From positions 434,001 through 498,000 of the forward strand of contig NZ_AP024718.1 in assembly GCF_030294985.1 (NCBI RefSeq): 64,000 nt of DNA, written 5' to 3'. This document shows, piece by piece, positions 60,470 through 64,000 of this stretch. A model generated the notes under the pieces. It had not been told where the DNA came from. It saw only the letters and a program-made list of their open reading frames with translations, and did not search any database. The DNA comes from Methylomarinovum tepidoasis (GTDB taxonomy: Bacteria; Pseudomonadota; Gammaproteobacteria; Methylococcales; Methylothermaceae). The position numbers and the translations under genes are program-made. The first letter of the stretch is position 1. Each line of letters begins with the position of its first letter.

Positions 60470-60784
60470 ATGACCAAGACCATCACTGCACTGACCGCCG
60501 CTATCGTGGGTTTGACCCTGGCTTCTGGCGCCATGGCCGCCGGCTCTAAAATCAAGAACTCGACCATCACCAACAAGTCCACGGTCAAGAACGCCGCCAA
60601 CCTCGCCATCAGCACAGGGATTGGAAAGGCAGAAGCCAACCAGGGCAGCATCAAGATCAAAGGCTCCACGGTCAAAAACTCGACCATCACCAACAAGTCC
60701 ACGGTCAAGAATGCCGCCAACCTCGCCATCAGCACCGGCCTCGGCAGCACCAAGGCCAACCAAGGTTCGATCGACATCGAATAA
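60470..60784 (+). CDS. Exported repeat protein 1, candidate fibre subunit
   Basis: The 104-residue protein has a Sec signal (MTKTITALTAAIVGLTLASGAMA) and then nothing but two 40-residue repeats, residues 25-64 and 65-104. Each reads like GSKIKNSTITNKSTVKN, then AANLAIS, a Gly-rich turn, then ANQGSI. Short beta strands of alternating Ile/Val and Asn/Ser/Thr with Gly turns and a conserved Asn-Gln pair resemble curli CsgA logic, although the exact Ser-x5-Gln repeat is not the same. I infer a secreted self-assembling protein. It lies directly upstream of a related protein and of a CsgG-like lipoprotein. No function is known to me. Confidence 0.8.
   Translation: MTKTITALTAAIVGLTLASGAMAAGSKIKNSTITNKSTVKNAANLAISTGIGKAEANQGSIKIKGSTVKNSTITNKSTVKNAANLAISTGLGSTKANQGSIDIE
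60542..60781 (+). repeat. Two tandem 120-bp coding repeats
   Basis: Repeat 1 (60542-60661) and repeat 2 (60662-60781) have exactly the same 120-bp period. Their first 70 bases differ by only a few substitutions, with the 34-base core beginning AACTCGACCATCACC shared exactly. This indicates recent in-frame duplication. Confidence 0.92.
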
Positions 60785-60798
60785 TCAGGAAACGTAAC

Positions 60799-60822
60799 GG
60801 GGCCAAGGATGGCCTCATTTTC
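60799..60822 (+). terminator. Weak hairpin between the two repeat genes, possible attenuator
   Basis: GGGGCC-AAGGAT-GGCCTC forms a 6-bp stem (one G-T pair) followed by ATTTTCC. It lies 15 bases after repeat gene 1 and just before the ribosome site of repeat gene 2. It could reduce expression of downstream genes relative to gene 1 or stabilise the upstream mRNA. Confidence 0.45.
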
Positions 60823-60838
60823 CTTGGAGGATCTCCCC

Positions 60839-61282
60839 ATGTGGACACGAATTCTGATTTTCCTTATAAGTATCGGCCTGGCATTCACCGGAATAAAAAC
60901 CGTTCTCGCAGCCGGCTCTAAGATCAAGAACTCGACCATCACCAACAAGTCCACGGTCAAGAACGCCGCTAACCTCGCCATCAGCGGCGCCGGTAAGGCA
61001 GAAGCCAATCAAGCCAGCATCCAGGTCAAAGGCGCCCGTCTGAATAATGTCACGGTCATCAATCGGGCCAAGGTCACCAATTCCGCCAACGCCGCCATCA
61101 GTGCAGGCGGCACTGCCCGGGCCAATCAGGGATCGGTGGTAATCAAGCGATCTCTGAACGGAGTGACTGTCGTAAACAATGCTAACATCAAGAATTCTGC
61201 TAACGTCGCTGTAGATGTCATGGGAACCGGTGGCTTATTGGGCACCAATGAATCCAATCAGGGTTCTATTGTGATCAAATGA
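60839..61282 (+). CDS. Exported repeat protein 2, candidate fibre subunit
   Basis: The 147-residue protein (start ATG 60839, with TTGGAGG at 60824-60830) has a signal peptide (MWTRILIFLISIGLAFTGIKTVLA) and three repeats: residues 26-64 nearly identical to those of protein 1, 65-103 (GARLNNVTVINRAKVTNSAN, then AAIS and ARANQGSV) and 104-147 (LNGVTVVNNANIKNSANVAV, longer turn, NQGSIVIK). All three keep the ANQ/SNQ-x-S-[IV] end. The graded divergence suggests different roles along a fibre. Alternative: a beta-helix surface protein. Composition is lower in GC than argS. Confidence 0.8.
   Translation: MWTRILIFLISIGLAFTGIKTVLAAGSKIKNSTITNKSTVKNAANLAISGAGKAEANQASIQVKGARLNNVTVINRAKVTNSANAAISAGGTARANQGSVVIKRSLNGVTVVNNANIKNSANVAVDVMGTGGLLGTNESNQGSIVIK
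60914..61279 (+). repeat. Three degenerate coding repeats in repeat gene 2
   Basis: Repeats run 60914-61030, 61031-61147 and 61148-61279. The first matches the 63-base core of the repeats in gene 1 with only one or two changes per copy (such as GCT for GCC); the others are related only at protein level. Gene 1 and the first third of gene 2 therefore share a recent common source. Confidence 0.85.
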
Positions 61283-61297
61283 TTTGAGATAGATACC

Positions 61298-61648
61298 ATG
61301 ACTTACCGCAACCTCCAATCGATCGCCAATAGATTGACATTGTGTTCTTTGGTGCTAGCGCTTGGCGCCGTCCCTCCCGTGATGGCCAACGATCTCAACG
61401 ATGGCATTGCTATCGACGACCCGATCGATGATTCACTCAAGCCTACCCTAAACGTCCCCTTCATTCTTATGAAAGCCAAGGCAGCTGAATTAAGAGCCAA
61501 GAAAGGCTTGAAATCTTCACGCCCGGTCATCACTCAGGGTGAACAGGGACAGGGAAATATCACTTTCGGTATTGGCAGTAAAATTGCGCCCGGCACTACA
61601 ATCATTAACTCATCTGAGATCAAAAACTCTAATGCTATATCCCGCTGA
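61298..61648 (+). CDS. Exported protein with one C-terminal degenerate repeat
   Basis: The 116-residue product has a signal peptide (MTYRNLQSIANRLTLCSLVLALGAVPPVMA), an acidic central part (DLNDGIAIDDPIDDSLKP) and a basic helix (LMKAKAAELRAKKGLKSS). It ends with GIGSKIAPGTTIINSSEIKN and NAIS, a recognisable copy of the repeat found in proteins 1 and 2. A protein with a unique N part and a single subunit-like repeat could be a nucleator or anchor, as CsgB is for CsgA, but this is inference. Start codon ATG 61298 follows a weak site; 15 bases after gene 2. Confidence 0.7.
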   Translation: MTYRNLQSIANRLTLCSLVLALGAVPPVMANDLNDGIAIDDPIDDSLKPTLNVPFILMKAKAAELRAKKGLKSSRPVITQGEQGQGNITFGIGSKIAPGTTIINSSEIKNSNAISR

Positions 61649-61667
61649 ACCGATACGGTGATACCTC

Positions 61668-63344
61668 ATGAAAGCCTGCCTGCCCTCTTTCCTATACCCG
61701 CTTCGCCACGTTCTGTTATCCACCGGGATACTCTGCTTCATCTCTGCCTGCGGTATTAATCCCCAGGATGTGGATCTAGATTTAAACACTTCCTTACCTG
61801 AAGTTAAAACTACCGTCTTTAGCGAAGCAATCCATAATCTAGGCCGTCTCAATGCCATCTATGGCAGGGATCCGCTCTATATCATGGCGAAGCCAGCCTT
61901 CGATCGTACCGGCACCTCTCTTCCCACCCAAGGTGAGATTCCCCAAGATATTTCGGAAATGGTGAAAAGCACCCTGAACGCCATCGGAGGCGGTATCTGG
62001 TATGTACCATACGATCCGGAATTCATGCTCAATACCGCCCAGACCGGCTATTCGGAATGGGGTGACAAATTGCTACCCAATGTAGTCCTGGTGGGAGGAC
62101 TGACCGAATTCGACCGAGGTCTGGTTACCAAGGAGGAAGGGGCTGACGTCAGTGGCAGCGCTGAAGAATTGGGAGTCCCCATGGGGCTTGACTTCGAGGA
62201 TACTCGCAAAAGTTCTCTAGCCCGCATTACGCTCGATTTCAATTTATTGGATTTCAAAACTTTCACCGGCATTCCCTTCATGCAGGCGGTCAATTCCATT
62301 CAGGTTCACAAAGGGCTCGGCGTCGATCAGCTGGGATTCACCGTCTACGGCCAAACCCTGGGGCTTCGGGGCAATATCAAGAAAATCCAAGGACGCCACG
62401 CCGCCACCCGCCTGCTGGTCCAGCTCAGCATCCTGCAAATTATTGGCAAATACCAGAAACTTCCCTATTGGCGGCTGATTCCCAATGCCGAACCGGATCC
62501 GGTAGTCCTCGATGCCCTGCGCGACGAGTTTTACCGACTGGAACAGCCGGACCGGATCGCCAAAATCCAGGAGCTACTGTATCTGTATGGAAAAGACGTG
62601 GAAATCACCGGCAAACTTGATGCGAAGACCCGAACAGCCATCTCCCAGTTCAAGCAAGAAAAGAACCTCTCGGCTCCAGATATAAGCGAAGAAATTTACT
62701 TGGCGTTGTTCGAAAGCGTTCCCCTGGATCGGGAGACGCTCGCACGCCGCCAACGGGTTGACAGACTGCTGGCCGCCTATAACCAACGCTTGCGTGAACT
62801 GGCCTTCCAGGCCCAGGCGGCTCCGACCGCCGCCGTCGAACCGCAAACGCCGCCACCCAAAGCGACACATCGTATCGGGCAGAAGAAATCGCAACCGACA
62901 GAGCCCAAGAAGAAATCCCTGGGCGAAGTGCGGGTATGGCTGAGCAAATCGGCTTACCAGATCGGTGAGCCGCTGGAAATCTTCTTCGAAGTGACCGAAC
63001 CGATGTTCGTACGAATCATCACCATCAATTCGGTGGGAAAGATGGCCACCCTGTTTCCCAACCCCTATCAGAATGACAATTTTGCCCGCCCAGGAAAAGT
63101 CTATCGGATTCCACCCGCCAATGCCCCGGTGAAATTGACGGTGGGGGCTCCCGTGGGGACAGACACCATTTATGCCATCGCCTCGGTCAACCCCATCCCC
63201 GCCGATTCCCTTCCTCTGGATGACCAGGGACACGTGATCACTGAAGGAATAGAGAAGCGTTTCGCCTTTGCCGAAGAAGCGTTTCAGATTCTGCCCAGCA
63301 GCGCCAGCCAAGCCGCGGTAGAAACGGGGGGAGATCAGCCATGA
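61668..63344 (+). CDS. CsgG-like outer-membrane lipoprotein with peptidoglycan-binding and DUF4384-like domains
   Basis: The 558-residue lipoprotein has lipobox ISAC (Cys28). Residues about 69-265 resemble CsgG: PLYIMAKPAFDRTGT, IWYVPYDPEFMLN, LPNVVLVGGLTEFD, ARITLDFNLLDFKTFTGIP and HAATRLLVQLSILQI correspond to successive CsgG strands and helices. Residues 296-335 (RIAKIQELLYLYGKD, GKLDAKTRTAISQFKQEKNL) are a peptidoglycan-binding domain. A Pro/Lys linker (383-417) leads to a DUF4384-like beta domain (420-508: VRVWLSKSAYQIGEPLEIFFEV, NPYQNDNFARPGKVYRIP). CsgG forms the export pore for curli subunits; this version is probably such a pore tied to the wall. It is the core evidence that the cluster secretes proteins 1-3. 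Confidence 0.75.
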   Translation: MKACLPSFLYPLRHVLLSTGILCFISACGINPQDVDLDLNTSLPEVKTTVFSEAIHNLGRLNAIYGRDPLYIMAKPAFDRTGTSLPTQGEIPQDISEMVKSTLNAIGGGIWYVPYDPEFMLNTAQTGYSEWGDKLLPNVVLVGGLTEFDRGLVTKEEGADVSGSAEELGVPMGLDFEDTRKSSLARITLDFNLLDFKTFTGIPFMQAVNSIQVHKGLGVDQLGFTVYGQTLGLRGNIKKIQGRHAATRLLVQLSILQIIGKYQKLPYWRLIPNAEPDPVVLDALRDEFYRLEQPDRIAKIQELLYLYGKDVEITGKLDAKTRTAISQFKQEKNLSAPDISEEIYLALFESVPLDRETLARRQRVDRLLAAYNQRLRELAFQAQAAPTAAVEPQTPPPKATHRIGQKKSQPTEPKKKSLGEVRVWLSKSAYQIGEPLEIFFEVTEPMFVRIITINSVGKMATLFPNPYQNDNFARPGKVYRIPPANAPVKLTVGAPVGTDTIYAIASVNPIPADSLPLDDQGHVITEGIEKRFAFAEEAFQILPSSASQAAVETGGDQP

Positions 63345-63646
63345 AAAAGCGTGTCCTGCTTCTCATCATCGCCCTGACAGGGCTGACAGCCTGTGAAACC
63401 GCCCCTGTCCGCCGGGAGGACTACATCGCCCAGCATCCGGAATGGGATCCGGAAACGGTGCGCCTGATCCGGGCCGGCATGATCGCCAAGGGCATGACCA
63501 AAGAACAGGTTCGGGCCGCCTGGGGGCGACGCTGCTATACCTGCCAGGGAACCAAGAAAGGCGATTGGGGTGAATCCTGGGAATATCGGACCCAAGTGGT
63601 GTTTTTCGGCCCGGATGGCCGTGTAACAAGGTGGGAACCGAAATGA
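63341..63646 (+). CDS. Small BamE/SmpA-like lipoprotein
   Basis: The 101-residue product has signal MKKRVLLLIIALTGLTACETAP with lipobox LTAC. The mature part has GMIAKGMTKEQVRAAWGRR and EYRTQVVFFGPDGRVTRW, the helix-then-sheet pattern of SmpA/BamE proteins, plus a CYTC pair (residues 65-68). It overlaps the CsgG-like gene by four bases (ATGA). It may help assemble or localise the pore. Confidence 0.7.
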   Translation: MKKRVLLLIIALTGLTACETAPVRREDYIAQHPEWDPETVRLIRAGMIAKGMTKEQVRAAWGRRCYTCQGTKKGDWGESWEYRTQVVFFGPDGRVTRWEPK

Positions 63647-63666
63647 ACAACCATATGAGGTTAACG

Positions 63667-64000
63667 ATGACCAAGAAAGCGACTCATACGCAATGGTTAT
63701 TCCGGATTTTTGTACTGGGACTGACCATTCTGCCCCCCATTGTCTATGGGGAAGAGGTCAAATTGTTCCAGAACCCACCTTCTGCGGAAGAGATGGGAAA
63801 ACTGCTCTTCCCTGAGAAAGCCGCCAAACCCAAGACCCGATCCCTGGCTTTCAGTCCGGTGGAAGCGCAAAGCGCTCCCAAAGAGTCGATCGCCATCGCC
63901 CTGCCGATTCAGTTCGACTTCAACTCCGCCACCATTCGGGACGATGCCAAACCGTTTCTGGATGAAATCGGCCGAATGCTGACCATGGCGCAATTTCGCA
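63667..64000 (+). CDS. OmpA-like peptidoglycan-associated protein, cut by the right edge
   Basis: The visible 111 residues have a signal (MTKKATHTQWLFRIFVLGLTILPPIVYG), a linker and the start of an OmpA C-terminal domain (IALPIQFDFNSATIRDDAKPFLDEIGRML), which binds peptidoglycan. GAGG at 63657-63660 favours the ATG at 63667; the ATG at 63643 overlapping the previous stop is also possible. It probably completes a wall-anchored envelope complex with the CsgG-like protein. Confidence 0.8.
   Translation, partial: MTKKATHTQWLFRIFVLGLTILPPIVYGEEVKLFQNPPSAEEMGKLLFPEKAAKPKTRSLAFSPVEAQSAPKESIAIALPIQFDFNSATIRDDAKPFLDEIGRMLTMAQFR

Follow-up and report, generated by a model that had tools for sequence, protein, structure and literature searches.

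In curli, CsgG is a nonameric channel, and CsgF, whose N-terminal 27 residues line the upper lumen of that channel as a loop-helix-loop, bridges to CsgB (PMC7304575). In the Caulobacter holdfast, the curlin-like protein HfaA forms multimers resistant to sodium dodecyl sulfate (SDS), and the CsgG-like protein HfaB is required for the localisation of HfaA and HfaD (PMC6707917). Here we describe a locus in a 64,000-nucleotide stretch of the Methylomarinovum tepidoasis genome (contig NZ_AP024718.1, positions 434,001 to 498,000; hereafter the window) that encodes two repeat proteins, R1 and R2, a third exported protein, R3, and a CsgG-like lipoprotein, followed by accessory genes. With a probability of roughly 0.7, we consider this locus to encode type VIII-like machinery of the CsgG type for export and surface assembly. 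A preliminary description had listed six plus-strand open reading frames (ORFs) from position 60470. Reading the ORFs confirmed all six in that order, and a signal peptide or lipobox was recognised by eye in each product (Table 1).

The preliminary description labelled the fourth protein as CsgG-like, peptidoglycan-binding and DUF4384-bearing. In the window copy only DUF4384 lies above the Pfam cut-off, with PG_binding_1 just below it. The CsgG family PF03783 matches neither this protein nor any other in its genome, which thus shows no trace of canonical curli, and the CsgG part of the label holds by predicted fold but not by Pfam. The AlphaFold2 model (mean predicted local distance difference test score, pLDDT, of 82; 57-70 in parts of the hairpins) follows the CsgG topology and includes both long hairpins (strands 139-164/172-195 and 200-226/229-240). 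All 25 best Foldseek matches were CsgG chains (6l7a_A, E 5.9e-10), with FlgT behind at 4.6e-4. The eight best VIA matches were likewise all CsgG (Z 13.2-15.4, with 6l7a_A at 15.4), covering up to 215 residues at a root-mean-square deviation of 5-8 Å, which is presumably high because the hairpins bend. Lipoproteins of the PelC/FlgT/LptE-like type followed in VIA at about Z 9-13, the core folds of PelC and FlgT reaching 12.0-12.8 (PelC 12.0). Absence of a CsgG fold from structure prediction had been set beforehand as a possible refutation; the fold was predicted. A sequence search against solved structures returned nothing for the CsgG part of the protein. Across an alignment of 52 pore relatives, PF03783 weakly matched 12 (best E 1.6e-3), and the HfaB model NF037935 matched 15 (best E 1.3e-4), the window protein not among them. 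Compared by hhalign, the same alignment scored 91.5% against a CsgG/HfaB-type profile but 34% against two bona fide CsgG alone. Peptidoglycan-binding domains are present in 26 of the 52 pores and DUF4384 in 14. As anticipated, the pore differs from known CsgG, in that PF03783 misses it and that C-terminal peptidoglycan-binding and DUF4384 domains have been added. A second, divergent CsgG-like gene without DUF4384 was seen in the metagenome-assembled genome (MAG) P_S1_bin.9 (L072:9463-11170), with small repeat genes of its own on both strands.

To survey the distribution of the system, we scanned 84,980 species genomes and obtained 55 loci, 54 of which were analysed. They span Gammaproteobacteria (mostly Methylococcales), Desulfobacterota, Nitrospirota and one Campylobacterota MAG, and repeat ORFs were found at 47 of the 54 pore-bearing contigs; in nearly all, the pore gene is preceded by the repeat genes and R3. 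Within the order of the window genome (61 genomes), the N-terminal part of the pore was detected in 11; the repeats were present in the same 11 and in none of the other 50. Two genomes with a DUF4384-domain match only (G036, G041) are outside this pore count. The class of a Desulfuromonadaceae genome (195 genomes) gave a similar picture, with repeats in 8 of 9 pore-bearing genomes and in 0 of 186 others, the ninth pore being a partial gene. The prediction that repeats and pore would be conserved together in relatives is borne out by these counts and by their adjacency at 47-49 of the 54 loci. A sample of 274 genomes from the window's class contained the pore in seven, strongly in G000, G016, G096, G238 and G265 and weakly in G176 and G291. 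The repeat profile found only G000 and G016 among these seven. Diverged repeats and an R3 were read by eye in G238, and the G096 contig ends before the upstream genes. In G176 and G291 (L151, L152) the repeats are too diverged for the profile; these loci encode tandem exported two-repeat proteins, an R3-like gene and a pore with peptidoglycan-binding and DUF4384 domains, together with OmpA in G176. Their two-repeat proteins are of the GGVQIQGNTTINA-type with a C-terminal Cys pair, and the system in these loci has diverged very far. The pore tree separates a gammaproteobacterial side from a Desulfobacterota/Nitrospirota side (99/96), suggesting that the system is old or rarely moved.

The repeats appear to form a family of their own. 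The two repeats of R1 are identical at 32 of 40 positions and contain no aromatic residue and no Cys. The repeats had been described as made only of Asn, Ser, Thr, Ile and Val; these residues are indeed there, but Ala, Lys and Gly are abundant too (mature R1, in %: S14 K14 A12 I12 N12 T12 G10). The cross-phylum consensus unit is SxVxGxVINxSxVxNAANVAxGxxxxANMGSVxxK, with a length of 36 residues in most Desulfobacterota and Nitrospirota and 37-43 in methanotrophs. Window R2 is 31-46% identical to three-repeat segments from Desulfobacterota, Nitrospirota and the Campylobacterota MAG. As a chance control, 300 composition-preserving shuffles of each protein were searched against the non-gammaproteobacterial loci at a level of 40 bits. 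Real R1 matched 27 ORFs at this level or above (best 71 bits), compared to at most one ORF in a single shuffle of the 300. Real R2 matched 36 (best 81.6 bits), 33 of which end no more than 4.2 kb upstream of a CsgG-like gene; 69 of its 300 shuffles gave matches, with at most 11 ORFs and a best score of 48.9 bits. The real repeat matches exceed chance. The stated difference from curlin is also upheld by the period of 36-43 residues and by the lack of any Curlin_rpt match in R1, R2 or their long relatives using hmmscan. The AlphaFold2 model of R2 is a three-coil beta-solenoid (pLDDT 89.6, predicted template modelling score 0.81). Pfam and NCBIfam names returned for R1 and R2 (GlmU hexapeptide, synuclein, pentapeptide, CsgH, Mop) were weak or below cut-off and were taken as resemblance in composition or to solenoids; against sequences of solved structures, the repeats gave only weak pentapeptide and designed-solenoid matches. 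A conductive-filament role was set aside because aromatic residues make up 1.1% of the repeats (F/W/Y) and Cys is almost absent.

Copy number also varies. The window genome has one R1 copy and relatives have one to three in tandem. In G003, three near-identical copies lie at L020:2756-4525 with a 590-bp spacing, and the first two units are identical over 590 bp. Either this triplication is a recent amplification or the window assembly holds a collapsed repeat. Near-identical tandem duplication changes the number of subunit copies, as expected of a structural subunit; R1 is presumed to be the major fibre subunit and R2 a second one. Two-repeat genes away from the pore operon were also seen in Methylotuvimicrobium buryatense 5G (G016), three on the chromosome (C1:3345930-3347027) and one on a second contig (C2:56880-57158), and orphan long repeat arrays occur in Nitrospirota and Desulfuromonadaceae genomes (G333 C4:98141-98644; G332 C31 and C60).

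R3 had been described as a third exported protein with one degenerate repeat, and alignment agrees, in that an N-terminal half of its own precedes one repeat-like end. The mature protein begins with an acidic DLxDGI stretch, followed by an NxxFIxxxAxA motif, a variable linker and a C-terminal solenoid-like strand. Its gene immediately precedes the pore gene, the position that csgF has relative to csgG, and a related ORF lies upstream of the CsgG-like gene at 49 of the 54 loci. One loose NxxF[IL]xxxAxA-like motif fits 26 of 28 R3 proteins and 2 of 3 CsgF sequences; it was defined after inspection and serves as a lead only. The CsgF family matched none of the 28 R3 proteins. Because the motif is post hoc and the profiles are unmatched, we put forward as a hypothesis, by analogy, that R3 may be a CsgF/CsgB-like adaptor-nucleator.

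The genes, their domains and predicted folds, the conservation of the operon and the co-occurrence were observed or computed; from them we infer pore formation, export, folding outside the cell, polymerisation into fibres, nucleation by R3 and tethering. Sec would export R1 and R2, which would stay unfolded or only partly folded in the periplasm before crossing the outer membrane through an oligomeric pore of the CsgG-like lipoprotein. Outside, they may fold into beta-solenoid coils of about 36-43 residues. Stacked end to end, with each coil as the template for the one that follows, these would build up a fibre or coat. R3 might use the same pore and anchor or nucleate the fibre at the pore mouth, like CsgF and CsgB in curli. 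In methanotrophs, the peptidoglycan-binding and DUF4384 domains of the pore, with the BamE-like, OmpA and DUF2807 proteins, could tether the assembly to the wall and surface.

Several observations weigh against this proposal. Nothing in the Protein Data Bank (PDB) matched the R2 solenoid model at E ≤ 0.001, although this does not prove a new fold; its first VIA match, the CsgA fibril 8enq, is not significant (Z 3.4) and is meaningless alone. Mature R1 and R2 open directly with the first repeat and thus lack a distinct targeting segment at the N terminus, such as N22 of curlin. In the window copy of the pore, the lipid-facing stretch of the first hairpin appears by eye to be short and weakly hydrophobic. 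R3 was rejected as a CsgF homologue by profile, since the hhalign match (2.1%) covers the signal peptide only. The genome counts are not phylogenetically independent.

Three other explanations were weighed. The first is a holdfast-like anchor, in which the pore exports R1-R3 and short surface oligomers hold polysaccharide instead of forming long free fibres. The HfaB matches among the pore relatives, the multimerising HfaA of Caulobacter and the O-antigen-ligase-like Wzy_C and DUF2807 proteins encoded in the methanotroph operon all speak for it. However, Wzy_C occurs in only some methanotrophs and lies outside the conserved neighbourhood of the Desulfobacterota and Nitrospirota loci, and R proteins of up to 972 amino acids (aa) with tandem copies suggest bulk structural use. 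HfaA and HfaD matched none of R1, R2 and R3, and neither appeared among the 25 families listed as matches to the alignment of the repeats, in a model library whose coverage of both is unconfirmed. We regard such an anchor as unlikely. Slightly less likely still is that R1 and R2 are exported surface adhesins or coat proteins that work as folded monomers without polymerising, for instance as solenoids that bind surfaces or minerals. The variable array length (2 coils at the low end, about 20 or more at the high end), orphan arrays elsewhere in some genomes and the weak solenoid matches, which include pentapeptide-repeat and ice-binding proteins, would suit monomers; the two-coil proteins, which are about 80 residues long and come in one to three near-identical copies, instead resemble polymer subunits, and a mature protein bounded by repeat boundaries suits end-to-end stacking and argues against monomers. 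Least probable is a CsgG-like lipoprotein that, like PelC and FlgT, forms a periplasmic ring or scaffold and does not span the membrane, with the R proteins as periplasmic solenoids stabilising the wall or envelope: PelC and FlgT share the core fold, and the peptidoglycan-binding, OmpA and BamE-like domains suggest the periplasmic side, but the model has long hairpins, the CsgG match over 211 residues scores clearly better, and strict pore-repeat pairing, with no other exporter conserved across phyla, fits an exporter.

The preliminary description covered only part of the operon, which continues past the window with genes for a DUF2807 protein (E 1e-38), a 155-aa protein, the O-antigen-ligase-like Wzy_C protein (1.7e-13) and an autotransporter barrel (1.9e-60), in that order after OmpA. 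Within the window, the fifth gene is present as described, but the BamE identity of its product falls below the cut-off; the OmpA-type assignment of the sixth holds by PF00691. The preferred R2 start is the ATG at 60839, preceded by GGAGG; the mature part begins at about 60911. Between R1 and R2, a search for terminator or promoter logic gave one weak stem at 60799-60816 and no more sites than in shuffles. The cross-phylum core consists of one or more repeat proteins, R3 and the CsgG-like protein, often with DUF2807 (25 loci), and BamE, OmpA and DUF4384 are lineage-specific additions. The BamE-like and OmpA genes are gammaproteobacterial, confined mainly to the Methylococcales-type operon (12-13 loci; BamE-like 12); Desulfobacterota and Nitrospirota loci instead encode an LPP20-like 250-aa protein (21 loci) and small exported proteins.

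Table 1. Features of the locus in window coordinates; a position in the whole-genome locus L002 plus 56000 gives the window position.
Feature	Position	Strand	Evidence
R1, Sec-exported 104-aa protein with exactly two 40-aa repeats	60470..60784	+	ORF
R2, exported, three 39-43-aa repeats	60809..61282	+	ORF
R3, exported 116-aa protein	61298..61648	+	ORF; related ORF at most pore loci
CsgG-like outer-membrane lipoprotein (predicted CsgG fold 41-278, peptidoglycan-binding ~295-335, DUF4384 430-508)	61668..63344	+	AlphaFold2 and structure search, Pfam
101-aa lipoprotein, weakly BamE-like	63341..63646	+	PF04355 E 0.018, below cut-off
OmpA-family peptidoglycan-binding protein	63667..64000, ending beyond the window at window-equivalent 64227 (L002:8227)	+	PF00691 E 1.2e-20

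The host genome is 2.44 Mb, and its relatives are Methylothermaceae, Methylohalobius and other Methylococcales. Near the operon, on the minus strand, L002:12091-14904 (window-equivalent 68091-70904) encodes a lipobox protein with Sel1-repeat, long coiled-coil and caspase (C14) regions. A sigma-70-like and a zinc-finger/anti-sigma-like gene come next (L002:15853-17644), and the whole group is conserved next to the operon in most of the genus. Ser/Thr kinase-like proteins of the order also bear DUF4384-like C-terminal domains (L031:8129-9787, L032:5114-7075, L033:5121-6836). Together with these kinases, the recurrence of caspase-like proteins near the operon hints at a wider DUF4384/caspase/kinase context.

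In the open-licence papers searched, no description of the system was found and none that links CsgG to DUF4384, Desulfobulbaceae, methanotrophs or Nitrospira in this sense, an absence that is weak evidence. The main text of Dueholm 2012 names no Methylo- or Nitrospira- taxon and has one Deltaproteobacteria system, in Desulfovibrionales. If our reading is correct, CsgG-type secretion and its surface polymers would also be present in sulfate reducers of sediments, in Nitrospirota and in methane oxidisers missed by csg profile searches, and could matter for biofilms and aggregates in methane and sulfur cycling. The system would also provide a natural, independent test of the minimal needs of CsgG-type amyloid export (pore, adaptor and targeting signal), because its pore is paired with a repeat that looks unrelated to curlin. 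Nanopore and fibre engineering would gain a new pore and a solenoid repeat with almost no aromatic residues. The system should be testable in M. buryatense 5G, a named isolate whose genome is sequenced.

Compared to other envelope lipoproteins, the pore shares the core alpha/beta fold of PelC, FlgT and LptE-like proteins but matches CsgG better, hairpins included, and no Pel, flagellar or lipopolysaccharide-transport context was seen in the stretch read. The Fap system of Pseudomonas likewise has an operon of its own for functional amyloid subunits whose repeats are imperfect, but it exports through the FapF channel and not a CsgG-family pore. With HfaA-HfaB-HfaD, the locus would share a CsgG-family pore partnered with small multimerising surface proteins, and weak HfaB profile matches were found; it differs in its accessory genes, and no holdfast export genes were seen in the stretch read. 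With curli, it shares a CsgG-fold pore lipoprotein with two predicted membrane hairpins per protomer, small Sec-exported repeat subunits (here predicted to be beta-solenoids) clustered with the pore gene, and a small exported protein, here R3, encoded immediately upstream of that gene. In contrast to curli, the repeat of 36-43 residues lacks the curlin motif and is nearly free of aromatic residues, and the pore carries C-terminal peptidoglycan-binding domains, plus DUF4384 in Gammaproteobacteria. No CsgA/B signature was found, and CsgE matched neither the operon proteins of the window nor the R3 family, the rest of the genome not having been searched for it. Since no curlin repeat, CsgE, CsgF or PF03783 match at its cut-off was found, the locus does not belong to the curli family as strictly defined; it very likely functions like curli export. 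We lean slightly towards a second lineage of CsgG-type fibre secretion that is distinct in sequence and widespread among Desulfobacterota, Nitrospirota and methanotrophs, with new beta-solenoid repeats (36 residues, in proteins of up to 972 aa), R3 in place of CsgF/CsgB, and no CsgE. Across relatives, a CsgG-fold gene is paired with dedicated repeat-subunit genes, the broad mark of type VIII systems, and the locus is best filed as a new CsgG-type (type VIII) secretion variant with a new subunit family.

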